DNA of 56,429 nt from Moorena bouillonii PNG (GTDB lineage Bacteria > Cyanobacteriota > Cyanobacteriia > Cyanobacteriales > Coleofasciculaceae), in NCBI RefSeq assembly GCF_001942495.1, contig NZ_MKZS01000001.1, positions 4,085,884 to 4,142,312 on the forward strand, given 5' to 3'. Shown here in pieces: positions 8,301-55,265 of this stretch. Position 1 is the stretch's first letter; each line of letters begins with the position of its first letter. A program made the translations under genes and the position numbers. The notes under the pieces were generated by a model. That model saw nothing but the letters and a program-made list of their open reading frames with translations. It was not told the DNA's origin and did no database searches.

Positions 8301-8862
8301 ACTGGTTTGTTGGTAACACCTGATGGGACATCTGATTGCGAATATTCTCTAGCTCTGAAGCAATTGTTTGAGGAGACTCTCCGGACAAATCCAAAACTTC
8401 AATTTCATAGGGAGGCACTTGCTCGAGTATTTGCTGGTTGCCGTCCGCTAAAACTACCATCCGCATCATTTCATTGTGCTCAATTAATTGCCTCCAGGCT
8501 TGGTTGACGCGTTCCAAATTTAAGTTTTCACAATCTAATTCTATGTATACATGGGTCGCAATATTGCCTAAATTAAAGAATCCATTGCGACCTATCCAAT
8601 AAGCTTGTTGGATTGCATTCAATGGAAATGGTTGATACCTTTCCTCTGGAGCCGGAATCAGGGTCGGCCAACTAGATGTGGCAGTGATATTACTACTCTT
8701 TTGCCGAAGTAAACTGACTAATTCAAGTTTATTTTGGGATAATAAATCGCGAATTTCTTTGGTTAACGTTCCCTTGGGAGCACTAATTTTTAACTCATCA
8801 CCTTCCGTCCATAATTTAATGTTTTGGCTAGAGATTTGAGATAGAATTTCGGTCAGTTTCAT
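5332..8862 (-). CDS. NRPS: TubC docking-heterocyclization-adenylation(Cys)-PCP
   Basis: Nonribosomal peptide synthetase module of 1176 aa that should load cysteine, condense it with the polyketide chain and cyclise it to a thiazoline. Domains: TubC-type N-terminal docking domain 1-55 (KLWTEGDELKISAPKGTLT); Cy domain ~70-510 with the heterocyclization signature DMLILDGLS (DxxxxDxxS, ~212) in place of HHxxxDG; A domain ~535-1040 (YTSGSTGLPKG ~687, GGATEASIWS ~833, KTGDLGRY, NGKIDRK); PCP ~1065-1140 (GGNSVHAI). Pocket regions (FDLSVYDIFG, LWNSVPP, MLSGDWLP) are those of cysteine-activating domains, although I did not derive the full code. No oxidase is present, so thiazoline rather than thiazole is expected. 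The ATG overlaps the upstream stop by 4 nt (ATGA), implying translational coupling. The last ~30 residues are strongly basic. Confidence 0.93.
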   Translation of the reverse strand: MKLTEILSQISSQNIKLWTEGDELKISAPKGTLTKEIRDLLSQNKLELVSLLRQKSSNITATSSWPTLIPAPEERYQPFPLNAIQQAYWIGRNGFFNLGNIATHVYIELDCENLNLERVNQAWRQLIEHNEMMRMVVLADGNQQILEQVPPYEIEVLDLSGESPQTIASELENIRNQMSHQVLPTNQWPLFDLRAARLNEQWCRLYIDIDMLILDGLSFYMLFEQWAQLYKEPESELPATEISFRDYVLAELALKDSPQYLRSQQYWFNRLDELPPAPEMPQAKITSAITNPRFKTHTAGLSTTNWQQLKHKARKADLSPSGVLLSAFAYILNYWSKSPKFTINLTIFNRLPLHPQVNELLGDFTSNILLAVDHSQAVPFISRAQKLQKLLWVDLEHRYINGVEVQRELHRRGRSQPMGVVFTSMLGFEYLVDERLGRRLGLDEFGEEVYKVGTTPQVWLDNVVAEKNGALIFNWYAVEALFPEGLIDKMFEAYCDLLQQLATSDEPWMETYFQLLPTAQLALQAQVNQTTQSLPEGLLHGLFVEKVKVQGQEIAVISPQKSLTYEELYQRSHQLGDGLRKLEVKPNELVAVVMEKGWEQVVGVLGILMSGGAYLPIDPALPQERQWYLLEQAEVKQVLTQTHLKQSLSWPEGINCWSVDSEELAVENPTPLEPVQTPEDLAYVIYTSGSTGLPKGVMIDHRGAVNTILDINQRFEVRASDRVLALANLNFDLSVYDIFGVLGAGGTIVMPPPEAAKDPACWIELIETHQVTLWNSVPPLMQMLVEHLFGTSRVPVEGLRVVMLSGDWLPVDLPEKIQSLWPNVQVMSLGGATEASIWSIGYKIEKVDPNWKSIPYGKPLLNQRFYVLNELMEARPVWVPGQLYIGGVGLAKGYWKNEEKTKASFITHPVTQERLYKTGDLGRYLPDGNIEFLGREDFQVKINGYRVELGEIEAALKQFPGMKEAIVTTIGDSEQNKRLIAYAVLKQQPITTENQIEEQDKISQLDQELNSCSQQLRKYLRQKLPEYMIPSKYVILEAFPLTANGKIDRKRLPEPQVETMTTTEYILPQTKIEQQIAAVWREVLQMEKVGIHDNLFDIGGNSVHAIRVHSKLQELLGIELKVVDLFTNPTVNSLSQYLDQIDRSSGTIKNRGDERSKKGIARKKRGNFRKSIRHKK

Positions 8863-11800
8863 AGAGTAATCTCCTCCCTATCTTCATTGATTTCTTCAGT
8901 TGGTACAGTATTTGAGTAACTAACTTGTTCTAACAATAGCTGTTGATATAAATATTCTACCAATGCCTTAATGGTAGGGTAGTCCAAAGTTACAGTAGAA
9001 GGTACTGAACACTTTAAACTACCTTGCAACTTATTCCTCAACTCCACAGAAGTCAAAGAGTCTATACCCAAATCAAAAAACCCTGTATCCATTTCAATTG
9101 ATTCAGGATGACTAATTCTCAACACTTGAGCCACCTGACGACGCACATGAGCCACCAACAACAAGCGAAGCTCATTAGGTGGTGTAGCCTCCAACTTTAA
9201 CAGAAAATCTGACTTCGATGGTTGGGCTACCTCCAATATAGTTTCCTGCCAATCCACTAAAAACGGCCACTGTGCCACTCTCTCCTGCCACCCTGACCAC
9301 TCAATAGGCATCACCCCTACTTCCACATCCGAACTACTCATCAATAGTTCCAAAGACTCCAATACCTGAGCCGGAGATATTAAACCCATCCCATTCTTAC
9401 TGAGCATAGCGGCTGTCTCTGTATCTCGCCCGAGCGCTCGTCCCACTTGAGAAACTGCTCCCCAATGGATACTCAATCCCGGTAATCCCATAGTTCGACG
9501 ATAATGAGCTAAACCATCAAGAAACCCATTAGCAGCAGAATAATTTGCCATGCCCTGACCCAGTGAACCCAACAGAGATGTTGCTGAAGAAAACAGCACA
9601 AAGAAGTCTAATGGTTGACTTTGAGTCAATTGATGCAAGTGCCAAGCACCTTGAACTTTCGGTTCCATCACCTGTTCAAAACTAGACCAAGTCTGATTTC
9701 GTAGCACTCCATTTGATAGCACCATCACAGAATGAATCACTCCTACTAACGGTCGCTTTGACTCCTCAATCCTCTGCAACACCCCTTTCATCGACTCCAA
9801 ATCAGTCACATCGGCTTTTTCCACTACCACGGACGCTCCTGCCATTTCTAACTCGGTTATTTTTTTCCTCGTAGCATCATCCGGTGAACGGCGTCCTAAC
9901 AATATCAAATGTTTAGCTCCCTTTGACACCATCCAACTAGCTACCAGCAAACCCAAACCTCCCATACCTCCTGTAATCAAATAGCTTGCTTCAGAACGGA
10001 AACTTAAGGGCTTTTGAGTTTTACCATCAGCTTGTTGTGCCACTAATTGCCGATGATGACTACCCACCAACCGAGCTACATAACGACTATCCCCACGCCA
10101 TGCTACCTGGTCTTCCCTATCCTCCGACCAAATTTCTTTAAATAGGGCATCAACTTTACCCTCTAAAGTCTCCTCTGGGTCCAAATCTATACGAGTACAG
10201 TTCAACTCTGGATGTTCCCAGCTAATCACTTTCCCCATTCCCCACACCGAAGATTGAGCTACTCCTGGTATCACCGGATGATTATTCGGCACCGCCTGAG
10301 CACCATTTGTCACCAACCATAATCGAGGGACAGTTGATAACCCGCCTTTCACCAATGCTTGTACTAAAGATAGAGTTGTGCCACACCCTAACTTCGATAA
10401 ACTTCCTAACTCCTCAGAATTAATCCCATTCCCCACTCCGGCTTCAGTCGTCCAACATTGTACCACTCCATACAATGATGGTGACTTCCCTGCCACTGTC
10501 TCTATTACCTCCTCAAAATCTTTAGCTTGATTAGGATTAATACTAAATTCTCCCGGAGCTATCTGTTGATACCTTTCTCCGGCAAATACTAAAGTACAAA
10601 CCTCTCCTACTGAGCGGAGTAAGGTCGCTAACTGTTGCCCTACTCCCTCAGAGTCTGCCAGTATCAACCAACTCTTAGAATCATCATTCCTTTGTTCTAA
10701 CTTCGTTTGAGAGCTTTTAGCTACAATTACCGTTTGTGCTGACAATGTTTCTGCCATTCCCTCCACTTCTGGCATAGTAACTACTTCAGTAAAACCCGTT
10801 TCTCTCAAGACATGATGCCATTTTTCACGACTCAACAAAGGATAATCTGGTCGTAATTCATAATCCCTGAATTTCCACCATCCTTCTAACAACCCAAATA
10901 CTAAATCTACCCATAGTGTTTTAGCTGTTGCTTCAGATAACACCAACATTCCCCCATCTGCTAACAGTTCTCGCACATGAGATAATGTCTGCTTCATATC
11001 TGTCGTTGCATGAAGTACATTAGCTGCAATAATTACATCATATTGATGAGCCTCAAATCCTTGAGTTGTCGGGTCTACTTCTATGTCTAAAGTTTGATAC
11101 TTTATGAACTTATAATCCCGGAATTTCTCTTGAGCTTTGGCTGTAAATAATGCCCCTATATCCGTGAATGTATATTCGGTTTGCTGAGGATTTAGATGAG
11201 GTAGGATATAGCTTGTAGTCCCTCCTGTTCCCCCTCCTATTTCCAACAACCTGAGCCCCCGGCTTTTCGGTAATTTTTCTAGAGCTTTGGTGATGGATTT
11301 TTCTACTATTGTGTTCATCACTTTCGCTACTGTTGAGTCTTCATAAAGTTGAGTCGCTGCTGTCAAATCTCCTTGGGGGAACACTAACTCTCCTGGGTCT
11401 ATTGCTCCTCGTAATACCCCACTTAGTTTAGACCCACAACGAGAGAGTAGTGTCAATGCTGCTGTTTCTTCTGGATATTTCTTCTGTAAACTGCTGATTT
11501 TTTCCGTAGGCTTGACTTCAGGTAAGGTTTGTGCTACTTCCCACTGCTGATTCTTTGAGTTGAGTATTCCTGACTCTGTTAATATTTGCAGCAAACGCTT
11601 AAACAGTGGTCGATGGGTAGGAACTATACCTAATTTTTGGGCTGCTACATCAAATGCAAAGCTTTCTGTTGGTTTGTATGACCAACTCATTGACTGTAAT
11701 GCTTGTACTATATAATCTCTGCTTAATTCTTCTAAGCTTGTTTCAAAAGACGCTGTTGTTTCATTATCTACTTGAGTTACTAATTCTGTCAGAGTTGGAG

Positions 11801-14800
11801 TTAATTTTTGGTTGATTTGTATAGGAGGTATGAGGAAATATGGTGGGAGTAGTTTACCTAAAATACCTTTGTTTCTCCACTCTACTTCATATAACCAATT
11901 TTCTATTGATTCGGTTTCTGTTCCCAGTAGGGTCTGTTTTGTTGCTAGTTTGACTTGTAAACCTTTGATGTTGGCAATTATTTCTCCTTCTGGAGTTACT
12001 ATGGTGACAATAGCAGTCAAACTTTCTGGAGTTTCCACTTCTTGACTGGTTACTGATACATATGCCCATATACTCAGCCCGGGAGTCTTATATAGTCTGA
12101 ATTCTTCTATTCCTGCTGACAGATAAGTTTTGTCATTATCCGTTGCTGGCAGTGCATAAAACATTACTTGCAAGGCTGCATCTAATAGTGCTGGATGGAA
12201 ATGATAGTCGCTTGTTTGTGTTATCAATTCTTCGGGCAGTTTGATATAACCTAATGCTTGGTTTGAACCTGACCACAATTCTTGGATGCCTTGGAAGGTA
12301 TTCCCGTAGTCTATCCCTACTTGTTGACATTTTTGATAATGTTGTTTGACTTCTATTGTTTGATTACATTCACTCTTGTATTTTTCTAGGTCAACTTTTG
12401 TCTGAGTAGGGGGGGTTGACTCTTTTCTGATTTTTCCTGTCGTGTGGAGTCTCCACTCCTGTTGTTCTGGTTGAGAAAATATTTGAAACTTATAGCTTTG
12501 GTTATCTATTGGGGTGAGTATGGTTTGGGCATTGGTTAATTCTCCTGTTGGTAGTATCCATCCTCTAGTTATGGTTAGGTCTTCTATTACTATCTGGGAT
12601 GTTTTTAATTGGTGATTTCCTGCTGCTATTGCTATTTCTAGGTAGCCTGTTATGGGAAATAGTGCTTGATTAAATACTCGGTGGTCCCTCAGATAGTTGG
12701 GTGAGTTTTCTCCTATTTGTGATGCAAATATTTGTTGTTCCCCTGCACAATTTAGCTTTTGACCTAATAGGGGATGGAGGTTTTCCCCTTGGGAAAATTG
12801 CCGTTGAGGCCAGAAGTTGTTGTTGGTTTCTACCCAATAACGTTCTCCCTGGAATGGATATGTGGGTAATACTACTTTCTGGCGAGTATAATCAGAGTCA
12901 AACCCTGACCAGTCTATTTTGGCTCCTTTTACATACAATTTTCCTAAGCTTGATAGCATTTGTTCCCATTCATCCACCCCTGGACGTAATGATGGCAGCC
13001 ATTCTCCTACATCTTCTGTTACACATTGTCTTCCCATTCCTAGCAATATTGGTCTCGGTCCTATTTCTAGGAAGGTTTCATATCCTTCCGACTCTAGAGT
13101 TTTCATACTCTGGGCAAATCTTACTGGTTGACGCACATGATCTACCCAATATTCAGCATTTGTTATTTCTCCATCTACTTCAGTACCTGTGACGTTTGAT
13201 ATTAGTGGTATTTGGGGTTGATTATAGGTGACTTGTTTAGCTACTGATTCAAACTCTGCTAACATCGGTTCCATCATTGGAGAATGGAAAGCGTGGGATA
13301 CTTGTAGCTGCTTGGTCTTTATTCCCTCTGATTCAAATAAACTACAAATATTTTTTATGGCTACACTCTCACCAGAAATTACTATACTTTCTGGTCCATT
13401 TATCGCTGCTATTGTTACTTGGGAACTATATTCTTTTATAGCCTCTGTTACCTGAGACTCTGATGCCATTACGGATACCATCTCACCACCGGAGGGTAAC
13501 TTTTGCATCAACTTTCCTCGCATGGCTATTAGTTTCAGACCATCTTCTAAACTGAATACTCCGGCTACTGTTGCTGCTACATATTCTCCTACGCTGTGAC
13601 CCATGACTACACATGGTTTGATTCCCCATGAAGACCATAATTTAGCCAAAGCATATTCAACAGCAAACACAGCTGGTTGGGTGTAAGCTGTTTGGTCTAA
13701 TAGATTATCACTTGACTTTTGTGCATCCTCAGAGTATATGACCTCTAATAGAGGTACTTCTAGATAGGGTTGTAAAATTTGGTCACATTCCTCTAAAGCT
13801 TGACGGAAAGTTGGTGCTTTTTCATAAAGTTGCCTTCCCATATTCGCATACTGGGAACCTTGACCTGTGAACAGGAATGCTATTTTCTGACCTTCGCTAT
13901 TTCGTTTTCCTGAAAATAGTCCTACTAATTCTTCCTGAGCTTTCCACCCAAGTAGTTTCTCTATTAATGCTTTTGGTTCAGAAGCAATAACTCCTAATCG
14001 ATAATTAAAATGTGCTCTACCTGTAGAGGCTGTATAACATACATCTGCTAGTGGTAACTCGGGATTAGTTTCTAAATAATTTTGATAATTACTGACTAAA
14101 TCTTCTAGAGCCTTTTCTGTTTTCGCAGATAGAGTTAACAGATGGATCGGACGTTCAACAATATTCTGACTTTTAACTTGAGAAGGAGCCTCTTCTATAA
14201 CTATATGAGCATTAGTGCCACTAAAACCAAAAGAACTAACTGTAGCTTGCCTTGGTTGGCCTTCAAGCACTTCCCAATCTTTTAATTTTGTATTGACATA
14301 AAAAGGGCTATTTTCAAAGTCAATATGTGGGTTTGGTTGATTAAAATGTAAGGATGGAACTAATTTTTGATTTTTGAGGCACAAAATTGTCTTGATCAAA
14401 CCAGAAACTCCGGCAGCCGCTGCTGAATGACCAATATTAGTTTTTACCGAGCCAATCGCACAAAACTGTTTTTTGTTCGTCCATTTAGAAAAGGCTTCTG
14501 TTAAAGCTTCTACTTCTATCGGGTCTCCCAGAGGTGTTGCTGTACCATGAGCTTCTACATAACTAATAGTTTCTGGGTTAATTCCAAATTTCTGATAAAC
14601 TGCTTCTTCTAAACTGGCTTGAGATTGACTACTAGGGGCACTAATCCCGTTAGTATTACCATCATAATTAACTCCTGTTCCTTTGATTACTCCATAAATA
14701 TGGTCGTTGTCTTGAATTGCTTGACTGTAGCTTTTTAATAAGAGAACACCACAACCTTCGCTCCAGGCTGTACCCGATGCTGAAGCATCAAAAGTCTTAC

Positions 14801-17687
14801 AACGTCCATCAGGAGATACAACTTGAAACTGACTTGACATTATTTGGAAGTCTGATGTTGGCATTAGAGTAATACCTCCAGCGATCGCTATTTCGCTCTC
14901 TCCTCGTTGTATGCTTTGGCAAGCTTGATGAACAGCTACCAATGACGACGAGCAGGCAGTATCAATAGCTACTACTGGCCCTTGAAGGTCAAGCATATAG
15001 GCAATTCTTGCTGGTATCATTGACGGACCATTTCCTGTAGCCGCCATCCTATGAACATCTAATCCTGAAATTGACAACAACTTAAGATAACCACCATTTA
15101 CCGTAACTCCCACAAATACTCCATATTGTTTACCTCTAAGAGAGTCTGTAGCATATCCAGCATCTTCTATAGCGTGGTAAGCTTCTTCTAAAAATATTCT
15201 TTGCTCAGGCTCCATAAACCAAGCTTCTTCCGGAGAAATATGAAAAAATAAAGGGTCAAATTTATCAATTTCATCTAAAAAACCGGCACATTTTGAATAG
15301 GAAGTACCTGGATTATCTGGATCTGGATGATACCAATTTTTTTCTTCCCATCTTCCAGGAGGAGCTTCCGTTACACTGTCAATTCCATTCTTTAAATTTT
15401 CCCAAAATTCTTTCCAGTTATTCGCTCCTGGATATCTACATGAAATACCAATAATCGCTATATCTGTAGTTGGTATATGATTTTGACTAGGATTAACCTC
15501 ATCATTAACCTCTGTCTTAACTTCTGGTTCTACTACTTCTAATAATAATTTTTCTGCTGTTTCTAAAGATATTTCTACTGAACTAATCAAAGATAAGATT
15601 TTCTCTGAGCTATCCATGTTAATTAACTTGTTTTGAATATTATCTATTTGATTTTCTGCTATAGCTTTATCTTGTGTTTCTGTTTCCGTATTTCCTAACA
15701 ATAGTTGTTCCGCATTTTCTAAGGAAACTTCACCAGATTGTAATTGAAATAATATCTGTTCCTCTTTAGTCATTTTGTTTTCAATGGATAACCGAGCATC
15801 CAACTCTTGTTCCTGTCTAGAATAGGAGTCAGGCATAACTACCACTACCCTGCCAAAATGCTTCCCGCGTCGCATATAATCAAAGGCTTTAAGAACATCT
15901 TCTATTGGAAATGTTTTGTAAGGTAGTGGCTTCAAGCGATCGCGGTCAAATTCAAGTGCCAAATTATCCCATATCTGAGAAAACAATTGATTATCTTTGG
16001 CAAATTCTTCTAACAAATCAAAAGTAAAATATTTGATATCTGGGCGTTTCTGATAGACTTGCTCGTGACTCCAAATGCCCAACTTACCAAGTTCAACATA
16101 TCGCCCTCTATCGGCAAGGATCTCTAGATTTTTCTGGATGTATTCTCCATGAGTCAGGCTATTGAGAATAACATCTACCCCACGGCCCTGAGTGAATTCC
16201 ATCACATCATTTACAAACTCCATCGTTCGAGAATTCATCACATACTTAATTCCCTGTTCCCGGAGATAATTCATCTTACCTGGACTAGTAGTAGCAAATA
16301 CTTCCGCCCCAAAAAGTTGAGCCAACTGAATTGCTGCTTGTCCAATCCCACCTGAAGCAGCGTGAATTAATACTCTATCTCCTGGCTGAATTTTGGCTAA
16401 GTTAATCAACCCGTGATATGCAGTCGAAAACGGCCCCCAAATACTAGCTCCATCTTCCATATTCAGATTAAAATTTTTACGCACCAGTTTGTCCGGCGAG
16501 CAGATAATAAAGCTACTAAATGCATCGTGAATTCTCATTACCATTACTTCATCGCCGACTTGCCACTGCGATACTTCTGCCCCAACAGCTACGATAGTAC
16601 CTGCACCTTCAAAACCAAAAGTGAGATCTTCAGCATTAGCAATGCCAAATGTTTTTTCGTAATACTCTTGGAGCATACCAAGTGCATTGAGTATATCCCG
16701 AAAATTAACTGGTACAGTTTTGATTTGAACCTCAACTTCACTTGGGCTTGGAACTCTACGTTCTAGAGGTACCAAAGTTAAATTGTTTAACGAACCATAA
16801 CTAAATGTCTTCAACTGAAATGGTTGACAATTCAATGAATCTGTTCTTATTTCTTTTCTTACAGCCTCTTGAGGAAAATTTTGAGGGTTATTACTTGCCG
16901 TTGTCCTTTTGTCAAAATTTTCCTCTATTCTACTTGCTACCTCTGGTTGGTGAAAGGTTATTTCGTGCATAGCTACTTCTTTATCTATAAATCCTGGTAG
17001 CGTTTTGCGGATTTTTGAAGTTAAGTGTTCCTTTAAAGTTATTAAAGATAGTCTGGGTTTTTCCGACATTTCATAGGCTATATTTTTAGCCACTTCTAGC
17101 ACATCTTTTCTCGGTACAACTGGAAAAGAAACACCCCGTTCAGCTAATTCTTTCCCTCGATAATTTTGGGCAGTATACATCATTTCAAACCCTAAAGCAC
17201 CGAATTTCTCAGGGAGAATTAACGTGCATCCGACACCTGGAGTAAAACCATACTTCATAAAATTAGTAGTGTAAATACTTTCTTGACTTAACACTACTAA
17301 ATCTGCATACAATCCCAAAACCAAACCACCGCCAATACTATGACCTTGCATAGCTGCAATTACTGGTATTTCACAATCTAATGCTATTCTAAAAAAATCT
17401 AAATCATTACATTTGCTGTCTCCTTTCCAAATACTGATTAACCGTTCTTTTGTCCCTCCCGAACAGAAATAATTTCCATAGCCTGTCAAAATTACTACTT
17501 TATAACTTTGGTTTTGAGCAACTGCACCAAAACATTTGTATAATCCTTCAATTATTCCAGGAGAAAATATATTGCAGTTTTCTTTATCTTGCATCGCGAT
17601 TTGCACGACACCATTACCCAACTCCACCAGTTGTACTACATCAGAGTTGCCCTCTACTAAGTCCAAATTAAGATTTAGGTTTGCCAT
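8859..17687 (-). CDS. Fused ECH2-ER-KS-AT-DH-MT-KR-ACP polyketide synthase
   Basis: A 2942-aa protein that finishes beta-branching and then carries out one extension. Domains: ECH2 decarboxylase ~1-255 (FCSGG ~77, GHSIGGG ~114); enoyl reductase ~290-655 (HAASGGIGQAA ~442); linker ~655-745 with two copies of a helix motif (GEVSLENAEQLLL, VEISLETAEKLLL); KS ~748-1170 (DTACSSSL ~912); AT (GHSVGEY ~1362, HAFH, malonyl type); DH ~1640-1925 (HRVFNQALFP; YGNTF); C-methyltransferase (LEIGGGTGG ~2149); KR (TGGMGGLG ~2576, active-site Tyr in ANYSAANGF, no LDD motif); ACP (GIDSLTSVE ~2876). ECH2 and ER at the N-terminus resemble CurF and the corresponding jamaicamide protein. ER would reduce the branched enoyl to a methyl branch. 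The acidic C-terminus (TEEINEDREEITL) fits docking to the TubC domain of the next protein. It overlaps ECH1 by 13 nt. Confidence 0.94.
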   Translation of the reverse strand: MANLNLNLDLVEGNSDVVQLVELGNGVVQIAMQDKENCNIFSPGIIEGLYKCFGAVAQNQSYKVVILTGYGNYFCSGGTKERLISIWKGDSKCNDLDFFRIALDCEIPVIAAMQGHSIGGGLVLGLYADLVVLSQESIYTTNFMKYGFTPGVGCTLILPEKFGALGFEMMYTAQNYRGKELAERGVSFPVVPRKDVLEVAKNIAYEMSEKPRLSLITLKEHLTSKIRKTLPGFIDKEVAMHEITFHQPEVASRIEENFDKRTTASNNPQNFPQEAVRKEIRTDSLNCQPFQLKTFSYGSLNNLTLVPLERRVPSPSEVEVQIKTVPVNFRDILNALGMLQEYYEKTFGIANAEDLTFGFEGAGTIVAVGAEVSQWQVGDEVMVMRIHDAFSSFIICSPDKLVRKNFNLNMEDGASIWGPFSTAYHGLINLAKIQPGDRVLIHAASGGIGQAAIQLAQLFGAEVFATTSPGKMNYLREQGIKYVMNSRTMEFVNDVMEFTQGRGVDVILNSLTHGEYIQKNLEILADRGRYVELGKLGIWSHEQVYQKRPDIKYFTFDLLEEFAKDNQLFSQIWDNLALEFDRDRLKPLPYKTFPIEDVLKAFDYMRRGKHFGRVVVVMPDSYSRQEQELDARLSIENKMTKEEQILFQLQSGEVSLENAEQLLLGNTETETQDKAIAENQIDNIQNKLINMDSSEKILSLISSVEISLETAEKLLLEVVEPEVKTEVNDEVNPSQNHIPTTDIAIIGISCRYPGANNWKEFWENLKNGIDSVTEAPPGRWEEKNWYHPDPDNPGTSYSKCAGFLDEIDKFDPLFFHISPEEAWFMEPEQRIFLEEAYHAIEDAGYATDSLRGKQYGVFVGVTVNGGYLKLLSISGLDVHRMAATGNGPSMIPARIAYMLDLQGPVVAIDTACSSSLVAVHQACQSIQRGESEIAIAGGITLMPTSDFQIMSSQFQVVSPDGRCKTFDASASGTAWSEGCGVLLLKSYSQAIQDNDHIYGVIKGTGVNYDGNTNGISAPSSQSQASLEEAVYQKFGINPETISYVEAHGTATPLGDPIEVEALTEAFSKWTNKKQFCAIGSVKTNIGHSAAAAGVSGLIKTILCLKNQKLVPSLHFNQPNPHIDFENSPFYVNTKLKDWEVLEGQPRQATVSSFGFSGTNAHIVIEEAPSQVKSQNIVERPIHLLTLSAKTEKALEDLVSNYQNYLETNPELPLADVCYTASTGRAHFNYRLGVIASEPKALIEKLLGWKAQEELVGLFSGKRNSEGQKIAFLFTGQGSQYANMGRQLYEKAPTFRQALEECDQILQPYLEVPLLEVIYSEDAQKSSDNLLDQTAYTQPAVFAVEYALAKLWSSWGIKPCVVMGHSVGEYVAATVAGVFSLEDGLKLIAMRGKLMQKLPSGGEMVSVMASESQVTEAIKEYSSQVTIAAINGPESIVISGESVAIKNICSLFESEGIKTKQLQVSHAFHSPMMEPMLAEFESVAKQVTYNQPQIPLISNVTGTEVDGEITNAEYWVDHVRQPVRFAQSMKTLESEGYETFLEIGPRPILLGMGRQCVTEDVGEWLPSLRPGVDEWEQMLSSLGKLYVKGAKIDWSGFDSDYTRQKVVLPTYPFQGERYWVETNNNFWPQRQFSQGENLHPLLGQKLNCAGEQQIFASQIGENSPNYLRDHRVFNQALFPITGYLEIAIAAGNHQLKTSQIVIEDLTITRGWILPTGELTNAQTILTPIDNQSYKFQIFSQPEQQEWRLHTTGKIRKESTPPTQTKVDLEKYKSECNQTIEVKQHYQKCQQVGIDYGNTFQGIQELWSGSNQALGYIKLPEELITQTSDYHFHPALLDAALQVMFYALPATDNDKTYLSAGIEEFRLYKTPGLSIWAYVSVTSQEVETPESLTAIVTIVTPEGEIIANIKGLQVKLATKQTLLGTETESIENWLYEVEWRNKGILGKLLPPYFLIPPIQINQKLTPTLTELVTQVDNETTASFETSLEELSRDYIVQALQSMSWSYKPTESFAFDVAAQKLGIVPTHRPLFKRLLQILTESGILNSKNQQWEVAQTLPEVKPTEKISSLQKKYPEETAALTLLSRCGSKLSGVLRGAIDPGELVFPQGDLTAATQLYEDSTVAKVMNTIVEKSITKALEKLPKSRGLRLLEIGGGTGGTTSYILPHLNPQQTEYTFTDIGALFTAKAQEKFRDYKFIKYQTLDIEVDPTTQGFEAHQYDVIIAANVLHATTDMKQTLSHVRELLADGGMLVLSEATAKTLWVDLVFGLLEGWWKFRDYELRPDYPLLSREKWHHVLRETGFTEVVTMPEVEGMAETLSAQTVIVAKSSQTKLEQRNDDSKSWLILADSEGVGQQLATLLRSVGEVCTLVFAGERYQQIAPGEFSINPNQAKDFEEVIETVAGKSPSLYGVVQCWTTEAGVGNGINSEELGSLSKLGCGTTLSLVQALVKGGLSTVPRLWLVTNGAQAVPNNHPVIPGVAQSSVWGMGKVISWEHPELNCTRIDLDPEETLEGKVDALFKEIWSEDREDQVAWRGDSRYVARLVGSHHRQLVAQQADGKTQKPLSFRSEASYLITGGMGGLGLLVASWMVSKGAKHLILLGRRSPDDATRKKITELEMAGASVVVEKADVTDLESMKGVLQRIEESKRPLVGVIHSVMVLSNGVLRNQTWSSFEQVMEPKVQGAWHLHQLTQSQPLDFFVLFSSATSLLGSLGQGMANYSAANGFLDGLAHYRRTMGLPGLSIHWGAVSQVGRALGRDTETAAMLSKNGMGLISPAQVLESLELLMSSSDVEVGVMPIEWSGWQERVAQWPFLVDWQETILEVAQPSKSDFLLKLEATPPNELRLLLVAHVRRQVAQVLRISHPESIEMDTGFFDLGIDSLTSVELRNKLQGSLKCSVPSTVTLDYPTIKALVEYLYQQLLLEQVSYSNTVPTEEINEDREEITL
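10488..13387. repeat. Partner copy of the DH-MT-KR stretch at 1-2900
   Basis: Partner of the repeat at the left edge, inside the DH, methyltransferase and KR coding region of the fused PKS. 10488-12062 is almost base-identical to 1-1575. From 12063 substitutions cluster and change amino acids, e.g. LSAGIEEF here against LPVGIEQF in the other copy. Confidence 0.9.
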
Positions 17688-49753: not shown

Positions 49754-49917
49754 ATCTTATAGAATAGCACCTTATACAGAAAGTTTCTTAATGGCAAGGG
49801 TAGAATTACTGAATCAGATCAGGGTTTACCTGGCGCTATAGTTAGTGAAATCAGGGTCAACTCAGCTGATCTAACAAAGGGCATTAGATCATATCCCTGG
49901 TGACCAGAGCAGGGGAG

Positions 49918-50115
49918 CTTCGGAGCTTCGGAGCTTCGGAGCTTCAAAGGTAAGCTATCAGCGTGTCGCGTATCAGCCTATGCGCTACGTCCCAGCCTTG
50001 AAGCCTGTGCCACGCTACAGATGGTGCTATCAGCTCAAGGCTGACGGCTGACGGCTGACGGCACCTCAAGCAGCACCATCTGTAGCGCATATGCTTACCA
50101 GGGTAGCTTCGGAGC
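49918..50115. repeat. Inverted-repeat element GTAAGC...GCTTAC with heptamers (copy A)
   Basis: GGAGCTTC units at 49916-49945 precede a palindromic element (about 49950-50103). Its outer ends are GGTAAGCTATCAGCG and GCGCATATGCTTACC. Inner arms GCTACAGATGGTGCT and AGCACCATCTGTAGC enclose GCTGACG heptamers. Related to 52709-53008. Confidence 0.75.
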
Positions 50116-50847: not shown

Positions 50848-51723
50848 ATGGTGGTTTATGTATCAGGGCGCATCCAGCCGATAAGCAGTCATAGCAGCTA
50901 CTGGGAGTTTAATTGGTTAGTTAAAAGTCAGTTAAAATTCACCCATGTAGACTCTCGTATCCTGGTTTGCGATCGCTGCATTGGTGTTGCTCAACTATGG
51001 CAGCCAAAGGCAGGGCAGCTGGGGAAAAAGACTCCTGTGGATGAAACCCTAAGAAACCTAATTGAAGAAGTATCCCGCTACCGGGACCCAAGTCCTGAGC
51101 GGCAGAAAGCCTTGAATCGTTTCCTGATCGTTGTTCAAAATCTACCTGGCATTTACAAATCTTCCCACGTAGACTATCTAGAGGCGTTAAATCGAACCTG
51201 GGAATGGGTCATCCGCAATCTGTACCAGTTTGAGCCAAGTTCAACCTCCGTTGAAAAAAGCTTAGTAACCTGGATCAACGGATATTTACGCTGGCGCATC
51301 CGAGATTTATATATTTCAGATAGTAACTATCCAAAGATTAGCACTAATCAACCGATCGGTAACAGTGAGGAGGATTCAAGGACTCTAGAAGACCGATTGC
51401 CAGACCCTAAACCTTGCTTGAGTAAACTGGATGATTACATTGAAGCAATCCAGACAGCTGAACGCCAGCGTCTAAGTCAAGGGATTCTCGCAGAAATTAA
51501 AAACGATCCAGATGGGAAACTAATCGGTTGTCATCCCCGCAACTATCCCGAATGTCATTGTCAGCTATTAGCAATCCGGTTGCTAGTACAAGAACCACCC
51601 CAGAGAATTGCTGACATTGCTAGAGAATTTAAGGCTAACCAACAAACTCTCTACTCTCACTGGAAGAAAAAATGCCTGCCGAAACTGCAAGATATTGGTA
51701 AAACGTTTGGACATCAACCATGA
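50848..51723 (+). CDS. Sigma-70/ECF-like factor of a DUF1822-CHAT unit
   Basis: 291-aa protein. I chose ATG 50848 because GAGAGGA lies 6 nt upstream; TTG 50833 is possible. Residues ~110-165 look like sigma region 2 (YLEALNRTWEWVIRNLYQFE, SLVTWINGYLRWRIRDLY). The C-terminus looks like region 4 with a helix-turn-helix (RIADIAREFKANQQTLYSHW). The first ~60 residues match neither region, and a Cys/His-rich stretch occurs later (GCHPRNYPECHC). Related sigma-like genes recur beside DUF1822 and CHAT genes in filamentous cyanobacteria. Its stop overlaps the next start (ATGA), so the two are coupled. It may regulate the unit or have been recruited as an adaptor. Confidence 0.75.
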   Translation: MVVYVSGRIQPISSHSSYWEFNWLVKSQLKFTHVDSRILVCDRCIGVAQLWQPKAGQLGKKTPVDETLRNLIEEVSRYRDPSPERQKALNRFLIVVQNLPGIYKSSHVDYLEALNRTWEWVIRNLYQFEPSSTSVEKSLVTWINGYLRWRIRDLYISDSNYPKISTNQPIGNSEEDSRTLEDRLPDPKPCLSKLDDYIEAIQTAERQRLSQGILAEIKNDPDGKLIGCHPRNYPECHCQLLAIRLLVQEPPQRIADIAREFKANQQTLYSHWKKKCLPKLQDIGKTFGHQP

Positions 51724-52706
51724 CTATTACAGAATCAACTAACATTAAGGTTTCTCTTAGCCCATACGCTCATAGTTATGCAGCACAGTTTGCTGCTGAA
51801 CAAACCACCCCTCGCAAGGGAAAACACGTCTATTTAAATACTTTAGCAGTTTATGCTATTAACAACTATCTTAAATGGCTCAATATTCCCAGTAATCTTG
51901 CTCAAAGTGATTGTTGGAATCCGGGTTTGAGAGCATTGTTTGATGTAGCTGATTTGGTTTTGCCCAACATTGGTAAATTGGAATGTCGTCCAGTGCTACC
52001 AGGTCAGTCAACCTTGAATGTGCCACTAGAAGTGACCCAAGACCGGATTGGCTATGTGGCAGTGCAGTTCAGTGAGCAATTAGACCAGGTAGAGTTATTG
52101 GGATTTGCTCCGTATCATGCGATCGCTAAATCCCTAGACCCTTTACCCCTAGAACAGCTTGAATCTCTCGATACACTAATTGACAAGATTGATTGGATTA
52201 AGAAATCGGTGAGAATAAGCCAATGGTTTGAAGAAATATTTCAGGCAGATTGGCAACCACCAGCATCACTTTTACCTCAGTATAGGTACAGGTCTAGTTT
52301 CAAAACGGTTACTGCCTTCAGAGGATCTGAGTTAGGTCTCAAGCGGCGCTCCATGCAAGAACCGAGGATAGAGGCTTTAAGGGGTAATGACAGATCAACC
52401 ATGCGAGCCAAGCTAATGGACTTAGCTGGTCAAGGAGTAGTCCTGCTGCTGCAAGTGAATTTCCAACCTCCTGATACTGAAGATATCGATATTTTTATGA
52501 GGCTATATCCTGCGGGTGATTCAATGTATTTACCACCAGATTTGCAGGTTAATTTACTTGATGAATCGGGCAATTCTTGTATGAAAACTCAAGCTGGAAA
52601 AACTAACGACAAGATCCATATTGATTTCAGTTGCCAACCACAGGAACGATTTAGTGTCAGATTAAAATTGGGAGATATAAGTATCACGGAAAAATTTATA
52701 ATTTAG
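51720..52706 (+). CDS. DUF1822 family protein
   Basis: 328-aa protein of the cyanobacterial DUF1822 family: a conserved N-terminus (GKHVYLNTLAVYAINNYLKW), a central LLGFAP segment and an LDxLI stretch. The C-terminal ~100 residues form a beta-rich domain (VVLLLQVNFQPPDTEDIDIF, then VNLLDESGNSCMKTQ and FSVRLKLGDISITEKFI) that recalls CHAT-associated beta domains. No signal peptide or membrane segment, so it is cytoplasmic. The function of the family is not known to me. It overlaps the sigma-like gene by 4 nt, and a CHAT gene follows after a repeat element, so the three probably work together. Confidence 0.82.
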   Translation: MTITESTNIKVSLSPYAHSYAAQFAAEQTTPRKGKHVYLNTLAVYAINNYLKWLNIPSNLAQSDCWNPGLRALFDVADLVLPNIGKLECRPVLPGQSTLNVPLEVTQDRIGYVAVQFSEQLDQVELLGFAPYHAIAKSLDPLPLEQLESLDTLIDKIDWIKKSVRISQWFEEIFQADWQPPASLLPQYRYRSSFKTVTAFRGSELGLKRRSMQEPRIEALRGNDRSTMRAKLMDLAGQGVVLLLQVNFQPPDTEDIDIFMRLYPAGDSMYLPPDLQVNLLDESGNSCMKTQAGKTNDKIHIDFSCQPQERFSVRLKLGDISITEKFII

Positions 52707-52708
52707 GT

Positions 52709-53008
52709 AAGCTATCAGCTATCAGCGATTAGCGCTACAGATGGTGCTACAGATGGTGCTATCAGCTATCAGCGATTAGCGCTACGCGCACGCTACTTGA
52801 GGTGCTATCAGCGATTAGCGCTACAGATGGTGCTACAGATGGTGCTTTTAAATAAAACAGGTAAGCATTGGAATAATGCTGAGTTACATCTTTTGAATAA
52901 AACAGGTAAGCATTGGCTTAATCTCTGTTACATCAGCTGACTGCTGACCACTGACCGCTGACCGCTGACCGCTGAACGCGCACGCGTGCGCGTAGCGCAT
53001 ATGCTTAC
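52709..53008. repeat. Inverted-repeat element GTAAGC...GCTTAC with heptamers (copy B)
   Basis: Outer ends GTAAGCTATCAGC (left) and GCGCATATGCTTAC (right), with repeated CTATCAGCGATTAGCGCTA and GCTACAGATGGTGCT units and CGCTGAC heptamers near 52940-52975. It fills most of the gap between the DUF1822 and CHAT genes. Its right end is open in frame with the CHAT gene. Confidence 0.75.
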
Positions 53009-53036
53009 AGCTGAAGCCAAGTTCAACACAAAAAAA

Positions 53037-55265
53037 ATGATTATAGTCAAGCTCCAACTAGTGGGAAGTGCCGAAGGTGGATTCCATACCACAGTCACTT
53101 CTATTCCTAGGGAATTTGACACCTTTGATGGCTGTCTACCTCCCCTCCCAGAAAACTTAAATAAATCATTCACCAAATGGCGGTCAGATTATCGAGAAGT
53201 GGAACAAGTACGCTCACCGATTAATCCTGACCAAACTGGGTTTCGCATCAAACCCAAAGGTGTGAGAGTTTCTTCTCCCACTAACACCACTCAGGATGTG
53301 AAATTATACTTGAATGAATGGCTCAATGCTGGCGATAGTGACTGGCAGCAAATCCGGGATAACTTAATTTCTATAGGAAGTCAATTTAAGCTTGCTGAAG
53401 AAGAAACCAGAGTACTATTGGATTCTCAAGACATTAAATTGGGCTACTTTCCTTGGCAAGAGTGGCAGTTATTTGAAGATCACTTCTCACCGGTGGAAAT
53501 TGCCTTAAGGGTCAGAGGTCGCCCTAAGGATAAAATCATTCCTGCTCAAGCCTGCTCCAAAGTCAGAATTTTGCTGGTTGTGGGTAGGAGTGACAATATC
53601 AATACTAATGCTGATCTCAACCTAATCCAGGAATTAGAAGAAAAAGGAGCAGAGGTAATCTATCTGATGCAGCCTAGTATCAGGGAGTTATGTGATGCCC
53701 TTTGGGAAACAGAAGGCTACCATATCTTTATTTTTACCGGTCACAGTGGCTCAGATCAAGATGGCCAAATTGGTTGGATTGAGCTGAATGACCAAGATAG
53801 TTTAAGTATTGAGGATTTCAAAAATTCCCTAAAAGCATCCATAGATAAAGGATTACAGCTAGCTATTTTTAATTCCTGTGATGGTTTGGGGTTAGCTAAC
53901 CAATTAGGGAAGTTAAACCTTCCTCGTACTATTGTGATGCGAGAACCTGTCCCCGATCCAGTAGCGATCGCTTTCTTACAGTATTTTTTCCAGGAGTTTA
54001 CCAGTCAAAAATCTCTTTTTGCTTCGGTTCATACAGCACGAAAACACCTGGAACATTTTAATTTACAGTATCCAGGTGCTATGTGGTTGCCAACCCTTTG
54101 TATTAGGGAATCCGCATTAGAGCAGCCACTAACTTGGCAAAAGCTTTATAAACCACCATCTGAGGAACGATCTGAGCAACGATCTGAGCCACAATCTGAG
54201 CCACCTTCTATCTCACCTAAAAATTTACCAATTAAGTTAGTAGTAACCTTACTAGGTATAGTAGCAATTTGTCTTGGGATTGGGTTATGGTTAAAATCAA
54301 AGGAAATACTAACGACACAATCAAAGCCTTGTCCTGACCAAGCCTCAAACCATAAACAGAATGGAACCCAACCTATTCCGTGTTTTGCTTATGTTGATGT
54401 TGATAAAATTCCTTCAGGAACATGGGTTTACAGTGGTAGCACATCTTGGGTGCCGATTCGCCGTAAAGTAGATCCAAGGATAAAACAAGTTTTTCCTAAG
54501 GTTAACTTGACTTACTACCACCATCCTACCCTACCACCGGGTACAGAAACTGGAATCAAAATGTTGCTAGATGGTCAAATTTCTTTCGTGCTGTCTTCAC
54601 GACCAATTAAAAAAAGTGAGTTCCAAGAGGCTGACGATAGACGATTTAAACTTAAGCAGGTTCAAGTCGCTAGTGATGCTATTGCTATTGCTGTTCATCC
54701 TGACCTAACTATTAAAGGTTTAACAACCGAGCAACTCAAGGCTATTTATACCGGGAAAATTACAAACTGGCGTCAAGTCGGTGGTCCCAATCTAAAGATT
54801 ACCCCTTACTCTCGCCCTAATGAAAGTGGAACTACTGAGTTCTTTCGCAAGACTATTTTAGTAGGAGATGATTTTAGTCAAAAGGTTAGTTTTATCCCAA
54901 CGACTACTCAAGCCGTGAGGAAGGTAGCTGAAACGAAAGGTGCTATTTACTATGCTTCGGCTCCTGAGATTGTTGATCAGTGTAAAGTAAAACCTCTACC
55001 TCTGAGGATATCCAAAACTGATTCTTTTATTACTCCCTATAAACCCCCACTTATCCCAACAGAAAATTGTCCTCAACAAGGACGCAATCAACTGAATAGT
55101 GAGGCATTTAAAACCAAGACATATCCGATCACCCGTCGTCTGTTTGTAATAATCAAACAAGATGGTCAAGGAGATGAGCGAGCCGGGGAAGCCTATGTCA
55201 ACTTGCTATTAACAGATGAAGGACAAAAGCTGATTGAAGAAGCTGGCTATATTCCGAGACGTTAG
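53037..55265 (+). CDS. CHAT caspase-like protease-TM-PstS-like binding domain fusion
   Basis: 742-aa protein from ATG 53037. In-frame GTG 52986 and ATG 53001 lie inside a repeat element and are less likely. N-terminal region ~1-175 is beta-rich. The CHAT domain ~175-360 has catalytic His in IFTGHSGS (~235) and Cys in IFNSCDGLGL (~280). A Ser/Glu-rich linker (PSEERSEQRSEPQSEPPS) precedes one membrane helix ~397-420 (VVTLLGIVAICLGIGLWL). The C-terminal ~460-742 is a phosphate-binding-protein-like domain (WVYSGSTSWVPIRRKV, LKAIYTGKITNWRQVGGPN, RPNESGTTEFF). Topology inferred from the binding domain: protease inside, sensor outside. It could be a ligand-gated caspase-like enzyme acting with the sigma-like and DUF1822 proteins. 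The family's substrates are unknown here. Confidence 0.88.
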   Translation: MIIVKLQLVGSAEGGFHTTVTSIPREFDTFDGCLPPLPENLNKSFTKWRSDYREVEQVRSPINPDQTGFRIKPKGVRVSSPTNTTQDVKLYLNEWLNAGDSDWQQIRDNLISIGSQFKLAEEETRVLLDSQDIKLGYFPWQEWQLFEDHFSPVEIALRVRGRPKDKIIPAQACSKVRILLVVGRSDNINTNADLNLIQELEEKGAEVIYLMQPSIRELCDALWETEGYHIFIFTGHSGSDQDGQIGWIELNDQDSLSIEDFKNSLKASIDKGLQLAIFNSCDGLGLANQLGKLNLPRTIVMREPVPDPVAIAFLQYFFQEFTSQKSLFASVHTARKHLEHFNLQYPGAMWLPTLCIRESALEQPLTWQKLYKPPSEERSEQRSEPQSEPPSISPKNLPIKLVVTLLGIVAICLGIGLWLKSKEILTTQSKPCPDQASNHKQNGTQPIPCFAYVDVDKIPSGTWVYSGSTSWVPIRRKVDPRIKQVFPKVNLTYYHHPTLPPGTETGIKMLLDGQISFVLSSRPIKKSEFQEADDRRFKLKQVQVASDAIAIAVHPDLTIKGLTTEQLKAIYTGKITNWRQVGGPNLKITPYSRPNESGTTEFFRKTILVGDDFSQKVSFIPTTTQAVRKVAETKGAIYYASAPEIVDQCKVKPLPLRISKTDSFITPYKPPLIPTENCPQQGRNQLNSEAFKTKTYPITRRLFVIIKQDGQGDERAGEAYVNLLLTDEGQKLIEEAGYIPRR

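Follow-up and report, generated by a model that had tools for sequence, protein, structure and literature searches.

A CHAT protease with a PstS-like outer domain beside DUF1822 and a sigma-like factor in Moorena bouillonii: a possible ligand-gated route to sigma factor release

What would a caspase-like protease on the inner side of a membrane cut when a solute-binding domain on the outer side changes state? The question is raised by three consecutive plus-strand open reading frames (ORFs) in the 8.3 Mb genome of the mat-forming cyanobacterium Moorena bouillonii PNG, which lie in the stretch of 56,429 nucleotides (nt) of contig NZ_MKZS01000001.1 that was analyzed here and is referred to as the window. 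The ORFs are present as a preliminary description of the same DNA had reported them: gene 1 encodes a probable divergent sigma factor, gene 2 a DUF1822 protein and gene 3 a protein in which a CHAT protease, a single transmembrane (TM) helix and a PstS-like (PBP-type) domain follow one another. Starting from features that emerge by computation, namely a conserved and modular unit, a DUF1822 protein of two domains with a disordered linker, a fixed arginine in that linker and a pattern of coevolution, we propose, giving the proposal an even chance of being right, that a transmembrane, ligand-gated caspase frees the sigma factor by cutting its DUF1822 holder.

The trio is a conserved unit, not a universal one. 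The neighborhood survey that the preliminary description had called for was anchored on the best 80 of 392 DUF1822 relatives in GTDB contigs (loci are designated here by L and a number), and it found both a sigma and a CHAT gene at 46 loci, CHAT only at 23, sigma only at eight and neither at three, so that the lack of co-occurrence considered there is not what is seen. Two loci counted as CHAT only (L108 and L118) have a sigma ORF once larger overlaps are permitted, and some of the misses, for instance L051 and L052, reflect the end of a contig. With CHAT as the starting point instead, 40 regions were hand-chosen from the listing of gene 3 matches; among the 37 that have a CHAT hit, DUF1822 lies upstream in 26, the sigma gene as well in 11, and neither is found in 11. 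Gene 3 was matched in 107 of 292 sampled genomes of the phylum, with at most three candidates scored per genome and with many of the matches representing separate PstS-like ORFs of about 350 amino acids (aa).

Gene 2 matches the DUF1822 family (PF08852) with 243 bits against a gathering cut-off of 25, and computation with AlphaFold2 predicts two domains joined by a disordered linker (Table 1); TPR repeats are absent from this model of the window protein. Across the family, the linker ranges from 14 to 42 residues and is hypervariable in sequence, and in columns 185–228 only two positions, F194 (42/62) and R201 (61/62), are conserved in at least 40 of the 62 rows. The motif [FYLVMIWT]R[SNGT], a hydrophobic residue or threonine followed by arginine and a small residue, occurs in 55 of 59 unique linkers, compared to a mean of 14.0 and a maximum of 24 in 300 shuffles. 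It is also clear in six of ten proteins that possess the C-domain but not the N-domain (hereafter C-only), as FRS in L146 and L018, VRS in L186 and L187, VRN in L188 and ARS in L184. Since several clan CD proteases cut after arginine, the conserved linker residue is a plausible candidate for the site at which CHAT would cut; an alternative role is that of a docking motif. Two longer DUF1822 proteins (L143:3388-4815 and L152:3600-5069) carry HEAT repeats ahead of the C-domain, which may perhaps explain why DUF1822 has been labelled a repeat protein.

The two domains of DUF1822 keep different company. After removal of identical DUF1822 proteins, 112 two-domain and 12 C-only rows remained, and a sigma gene is the neighbor of 81 of the former and none of the latter (Fisher p ~1e-6, which assumes independent rows, a property that these do not fully have). 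CHAT adjoins nine of the 12 C-only proteins, and the C-domain stays with CHAT even where the N-terminal partner is TRADD-N or PIN and the sigma gene is absent. In 58 complete triads, sigma distances correlate with those of the N-domain at a rho of 0.80 and with those of the C-domain at 0.47 (bootstrap difference 0.33, 95% interval 0.18–0.46), and CHAT distances with those of the C-domain at 0.72 and of the N-domain at 0.64; all of these values are raised by shared species history, but that history alone would not account for the crossed pattern. The N-domain is thus indicated to go with sigma and the C-domain with CHAT.

These same co-occurrence and coevolution data are also predicted if DUF1822 is a positive partner or chaperone that brings sigma to a membrane complex, with CHAT destroying either sigma or DUF1822 and so turning the response off, and sigma–DUF1822 pairs that have no CHAT neighbor do exist (9 of 112). 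On the other side, a sigma gene followed by an overlapping partner is the customary order of sigma and anti-sigma genes. The closest precedent, moreover, is one of inhibition: as described in the available text of the report on type III-E CRISPR systems, the CHAT protease Csx29 (TPR-CHAT) cuts Csx30, which binds and inhibits a sigma factor that is like those of the extracytoplasmic function (ECF) type, the N-domain of Csx30 being sufficient for sigma binding and its C-domain docking on CHAT (PMC10028731, Science 2022). We consider the positive role unlikely. Because the domain pattern of DUF1822 matches the division of labor in Csx30, we prefer a course that would run from phosphate to CHAT, from CHAT to a cut in the linker, and from the cut to release of sigma.

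The protease end of gene 3 matches PF12770 with an E-value of 3.3e-6 and 27.2 bits against a cut-off of 24. The catalytic pair to which the preliminary description had pointed is found as His236 and Cys281 (numbering from ATG 53037), and the loss of this dyad in homologues, which it had contemplated, is not observed, the pair being retained in 121 of 121 scorable homologues, that is, those of sufficient length among 129 CHAT hits. Asp193, which could contribute to an acidic S1 pocket suited to arginine, is conserved in 121 of 122 rows. The single membrane helix is likewise borne out, with one strong segment and a much lower next-best hydropathy, whereas sensor outside and protease inside stands as the natural arrangement, deduced from the single helix and the exported type of the outer domain. 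In a Moorena relative (L053:3145-4515), gene 3 has 456 aa; CHAT, which lacks its end, runs into the last part of the PBP domain, and neither the helix nor the greater part of the sensor is present, perhaps through a deletion or an assembly fault.

The kind of system, which the preliminary description had put forward as a candidate undescribed one, is already on record. In section 9 of their 2021 article, Kaur et al. name EACC2-caspase proteins with variable C-termini, serving as sensors, together with an adjoining ECF sigma factor and DUF1822 (PMC8195603); we borrow the name EACC2 for residues 1–175 of gene 3 by position and not from a domain model. By analogy with EACC1, these authors propose autopeptidase activation, with sigma acting later (PMC8195603), in which case the caspase would cut its own protein on stimulus, DUF1822 would be a scaffold and sigma would belong to a separate step. 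From residue 356, within CHAT, to the helix, Trp367 is the only residue invariant among the 25 PBP-type proteins, so that no invariant arginine lies between CHAT and the helix, in contrast to the fixed arginine of the DUF1822 linker. Self-cleavage, which could also fall elsewhere in gene 3, is in our judgment improbable, and a cut in DUF1822 remains the course that we prefer.

Which ligand could gate such a protease is suggested by both the sensor and the DNA ahead of the unit. Nine of the 11 solved-structure matches of the sensor are named phosphate-binding proteins, the other two being Sll0540 (9l8j), which is the top match (E 4.6e-24), and a generic ABC binding protein. Residues S468, T469, R522 and G598 are present in 25 of 25 PBP-type proteins, and serine occupies position 503 in 23 of them (threonine in the window). 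The GST, SR and (S/G)GT loops, which we take to be phosphate contacts, are retained in PBP-type proteins, and no transporter gene was met among the flanking proteins scanned.

In cyanobacteria, the Pho box consists of tandem CTTAACCT-type 8-mers with 3-nt spacers, according to the available text of PMC1906773. A Pho-box-like site precedes gene 1, on the minus strand and with two repeats rather than three, and as such it is suggestive only. It is one of two such sites in the window, and none of 60 dinucleotide shuffles of the 300 nt upstream of gene 1 equals it; at up to two mismatches, the window holds 18 Pho-like sites against 15.7 expected, i.e. there is no window-wide enrichment. Overlapping it, the element AAARTCAGKTAAAMTYMA is found as an exact match upstream of gene 1 and once in each of 15 other scanned Moorena/Nostocales loci, from which same loci the pattern was derived. 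An exact two-box pattern, selected after a first look at the data, occurs 21 times in 2.31 Mb with both strands counted. Six of these occurrences precede the sigma gene by no more than 330 nt, each at a different PBP locus (two labelled Rivularia, two Calothrix, one Plectonema and one Richelia), where about 0.003 would be expected per locus on one strand. With a slightly stricter pattern, one mismatch and a limit of 300 nt, sites are found in 5 of 25 PBP-type rows (L051 and L052, in which gene 3 is off the contig, being assigned to this group by kinship) versus 0 of 28 others; Moorena contributes three of the five, one of which is the window. Taken together, Pho boxes, sensor matches and ligand loops lend moderate support to phosphate as the signal.

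The outer domain is exchangeable. Among the 129 CHAT hits it is PstS-like in 33 and CHASE2-like in 59, and 37 match neither profile or are truncated; the latter include NB-ARC-TPR (L138), macro (L156) and pentapeptide (L019) proteins by Pfam, and ANF-type, STAND and WD40 proteins by eye. In a tree computed from 120 CHAT modules, which was built by a quick method and carries long-branch warnings, eight sensor labels require at least 20 changes (minimum 7; mean of 55.9 after shuffling). The 32 PBP-type modules all belong to one strongly supported set, which also contains nine ANF-type modules and one other. Since they group in this tree, the PBP type is a coherent subtype across several cyanobacterial genera. 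Elsewhere, PstS-like domains are fused to an apparent Ser/Thr kinase (L133:5404-7359, minus strand; by eye) and to an apparent p20-type caspase domain with FFSGHG and DCCFSGA motifs (L135:4483-6549, plus strand; by eye), or follow an N-terminal region of ~270 aa (L134:3628-5460, minus strand).

The M. bouillonii genome itself contains 16 DUF1822 matches, some of which are two parts of one gene, and the regions fetched around those outside the window yielded nine further CHAT-module proteins, with outer parts of CHASE2 (L009, L011, L013, L014, L016 and L017), PstS-like (L020) and pentapeptide (L019) type. A sigma–DUF1822–CHAT–CHASE2 unit is present twice (L011 and L012, at ~1.526 and 1.485 Mb). 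The two copies agree in ORF lengths, scores and first residues and have identical neighbors on their left, which likely reflects a recent duplication.

Such numbers of paralogues would suit a conflict or cell-death module, in which the caspase is an effector against invaders, sigma amplifies the response and the sensor reads an invader product instead of phosphate, and the sister modules with TRADD-N, NB-ARC/STAND, macro and PIN domains are tied to immunity and cell death in the available text of Kaur et al. (PMC8195603). However, the PBP subtype retains phosphate-type loops and has Pho boxes in one clade, and Pfam, NCBIfam and PADLOC scans of the three window genes matched no toxin or nuclease domain. 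The preliminary description had entertained a stress, cell-death or defense circuit, but nothing found at this locus points to cell death or phage defense, the single PADLOC match being one of 79 residues in the CHAT part of gene 3 to BovA (E 0.0005); a conflict function is, in our view, decidedly unlikely here, and phosphate-gated release of sigma remains preferred.

That proposal requires gene 1 to be a sigma factor, and we regard it as likely, but not certain, that it is a divergent one of the ECF type, since a profile–profile comparison matches it to the smaller sigma factors of the same genome. The gene 1 family profile (41 relatives) aligned by hhalign to a profile of six such factors (ECF and similar) with a probability of 93.6 and an E-value of 2e-7 for this single comparison, over both sigma region 2 and region 4; the probability was 10 against five larger sigma factors, with only the helix-turn-helix (HTH) aligned, and 0.1 against DUF1822 as a control. 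Gene 1 alone has no sigma match among Pfam or NCBIfam models, and a profile search of solved structures with its family returned no sigma factor among the matches. Pfam matches in the family are mostly to generic HTH domains; 14 of the 41 members match Sigma70_r4_2 at E-values up to 0.5, and two paralogues match Sigma70_r2 (0.003, L013) and Sigma70_r4_2 (0.0008, L014), both below curated cut-offs. ECF sigma factor is also the name given to this neighbor gene by Kaur et al. in the text available (PMC8195603).

On the basis of these data, the proposed course of events would be as follows. The N-domain of DUF1822 would bind and restrain the ECF-type sigma factor, and its Ig-like C-domain would dock on the CHAT protease. 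The PstS-like domain, outside the membrane, would read phosphate, probably low phosphate, and a change in its state would pass through the single helix and switch CHAT on. CHAT would then cut the linker after the conserved arginine, releasing sigma for transcription of its targets. In relatives, the outer sensor is replaced by CHASE2, ANF-type, STAND, WD40, macro or pentapeptide domains with the DUF1822 C-domain and CHAT retained, and in a few the N-terminal partner is replaced as well, by TRADD-N or PIN. We infer the binding of sigma to DUF1822, the cleavage of DUF1822, the cut site, the direction of the signal and the ligand; of the ligand-controlled proteolysis previously suggested, action on DUF1822 has indirect support in the way the domains co-occur and coevolve and in the linker arginine.

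Several observations weigh against this proposal. One CHAT protein of the M. bouillonii genome lacks DUF1822 (L139), and three of its DUF1822 regions (L010, L015 and L018) gave no CHAT hit. Of the 12 C-only rows, L020 is a remnant, L190 is a split gene, L018 is truncated, and L186 and L187 are nearly identical to each other; the preference of CHAT for the C- over the N-domain is borderline (difference 0.09, 95% interval 0.001–0.183). About 24 rows, mostly Nostocales, combine full DUF1822 with CHAT (those that were classified being of CHASE2 type) but have no sigma gene next to them, so that an N-domain is not always accompanied by sigma in cis. The arginine motif is unclear in the C-only proteins L136, L138, L019 and L191, and is retained in the absence of a downstream CHAT in L079, L082, L091, L092, L096, L098, L114 and L120. 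The sensor matches TIGR02136 with an E-value of 1.1e-44 but at 152.8 bits, below the curated cut-off of 206.6, and the exact Pho pattern is missing from 19 of 25 PBP-type rows, its six carriers being close kin and not independent. In the Csx30 precedent, as far as the available text goes, the cut falls in a loop inside the C-domain and not in an interdomain linker, and how it releases sigma is still unsettled (PMC10028731). An hmmsearch of PDB sequences with the DUF1822 profile, up to an E-value of 10, gave one match, which is not Csx30; a distant kinship is possible.

A broader reading, which we offer tentatively and think rather more likely to fail than to hold, is that the DUF1822 C-domain serves as a portable "cut-me" tag: this Ig-like domain, placed after a short disordered linker with usually one fixed arginine, would hand any N-terminal cargo to a CHAT caspase. 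The cargo could be the sigma-holding domain, TRADD-N, a PIN nuclease or an HTH-like domain, and CHAT could be membrane-bound or cytoplasmic, with an exchangeable sensor; a large cyanobacterial genome would then run up to ten or so circuits in parallel, the window copy being a phosphate-gated sigma switch that operates as the Csx29–Csx30–sigma arm does, without CRISPR. PIN-domain proteins fused to DUF1822-C adjoin CHAT-pentapeptide proteins at L019:4713-5768 and L146:4252-5202, and a second, similar PIN-type ORF lies directly upstream at L019 (3852-4637). Such a fusion is possibly a caspase-released nuclease.

The coordinates in Table 1 keep the ORFs of the preliminary description and revise two starts. 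Orthologues of gene 1 begin with MDEQL, which aligns with VDETL of the window protein, and GTG 51037 is preceded by a similar GGGA-type ribosome site (judged by eye); for these reasons the first ~63 codons previously assigned to gene 1 are probably untranslated. For gene 3, ATG 53037 is a better start than GTG 52986. Genes 1 and 2 do overlap by 4 nt, as had been described. The distance from gene 2 to gene 3 is 330 nt, compared to ~10–30 nt in many relatives, and the nearest named relatives of the window DUF1822 protein are from Moorena spp. (94% and 93% identity). Short repeats of the type gctatcagc..gctacagatggtgct lie upstream of the unit (49900-50110) and also take up the interval that separates gene 2 from gene 3 (52710-52990). 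Elsewhere in the window (5332-33215, minus strand), six long ORFs of a polyketide synthase (PKS) and nonribosomal peptide synthetase (NRPS) region were scanned, ORFs 1-5025 and 8859-17687 being excluded; they match models for NRPS, PKS with CurL-like domains, HMG-CoA synthase, enoyl-CoA hydratase and AprA-type methyltransferase, and presumably resemble apratoxin-type pathways.

Table 1. Positions in the window of the three genes, their predicted parts and the upstream elements
Feature	Position	Strand	Remark
Two-repeat Pho-box-like site	50918..50936	-	YTTAAYYWNNNYTTAAYYW with 1 mismatch; 100 nt before gene 1 start
Conserved upstream element AAARTCAGKTAAAMTYMA	50924..50941	+	Overlaps Pho-box-like site
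Gene 1: divergent, probably ECF-type sigma factor, ~228 aa	51037..51723	+	ORF open from 50833
Gene 2: DUF1822 protein, 328 aa	51720..52706	+	PF08852, E 6.5e-72
DUF1822 N-domain (residues 9-184), proposed sigma-holding	51744..52271	+	AlphaFold2 pLDDT mostly 84-98
Disordered linker (residues 185-226), proposed cleavage region	52272..52397	+	pLDDT <50 for 195-223
Arg201 codon, near-invariant linker residue, candidate P1	52320..52322	+	R in 61/62 rows, K in 1/62
DUF1822 C-domain (residues 227-327), Ig-like beta-sandwich, proposed CHAT-docking	52398..52700	+	AlphaFold2; also beside CHAT without N-domain or sigma
Gene 3: CHAT-TM-PstS-like protein, 742 aa	53037..55265	+	
Region ahead of CHAT (residues 1-175), position of EACC2 domain	53037..53561	+	Aligns across most homologues
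CHAT protease domain (residues 176-370), His236, Cys281	53562..54146	+	PF12770
Transmembrane helix (residues 401-419)	54237..54293	+	Mean hydropathy (Kyte-Doolittle) 2.65 across 19 residues
PstS-like sensor domain (residues 455-742)	54399..55262	+	PF12849 (PBP_like_2), E 2.4e-37

Caspase-like proteases are common in filamentous cyanobacteria, and to our knowledge few of them have a known substrate; the present analysis puts forward a candidate substrate with the residue at which it would be cut, a pair of proposed docking partners and a probable ligand, all specific enough to be tested directly. Among the systems to which the window unit can be compared is DegS/RseA/RpoE, in which the anti-sigma factor is itself a membrane-spanning protein and the first cut is made by a serine protease on the outside. 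The likeness lies in an outside signal, proteolysis and sigma release, whereas in the window sensor and protease are in one protein and the holder is predicted to be soluble. If the proposal is true, it adds a further route for freeing a sigma factor across a membrane. PstS and Sll0540 resemble the sensor in sequence family and ligand loops, but the window domain is joined via a helix to a protease and falls below the TIGR02136 cut-off.

The EACC2-caspase systems share with the window the gene trio, a constant caspase module, a variable C-terminus and TM sensors such as CHASE2 (PMC8195603, available text). At the window locus, a dyad-bearing caspase-superfamily domain follows the conserved region 1–175, with DUF1822 (certain) and ECF sigma (probable, by profile comparison) genes adjacent, and the homologues have variable C-termini, some extracellular with TM helices (CHASE2, PBP, pentapeptide, NB-ARC-TPR and macro by Pfam). 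In the main text of Kaur et al., DUF1822 is a TPR protein, the word itself occurs once and the terms PstS and periplasmic binding do not appear; section 9 shows no split of DUF1822 into domains, no DUF1822-C in a TRADD-N partner and no cleavage site (PMC8195603). Likewise, the domain split, the PstS-like sensor and the arginine were not met in the available literature on DUF1822, EACC2, TRADD-N and CHAT proteases. The kind of system is thus already known; what is new is a subtype with a PstS-like sensor, one clade of which has Pho boxes, the domain anatomy of DUF1822 and its linker arginine as a candidate cleavage site.

Finally, the CASP arm of type III-E CRISPR resembles the window unit in combining a sigma factor, a two-domain holder with a flexible linker and CHAT (PMC10028731, available text). 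The assignment of the N-domain to sigma and of the C-domain to CHAT is demonstrated for Csx30, whereas for DUF1822 it is indicated by co-occurrence and coevolution. The type III-E system is activated by RNA via Cas7-11, and the window system would be activated by the proposed membrane sensor; no Cas7-11 effector or crRNA was met among the proteins scanned, no dedicated search having been made. If the proposal is true, a counterpart to the CHAT–holder–sigma arm of type III-E CRISPR is widespread outside CRISPR, and its sensors can be exchanged.

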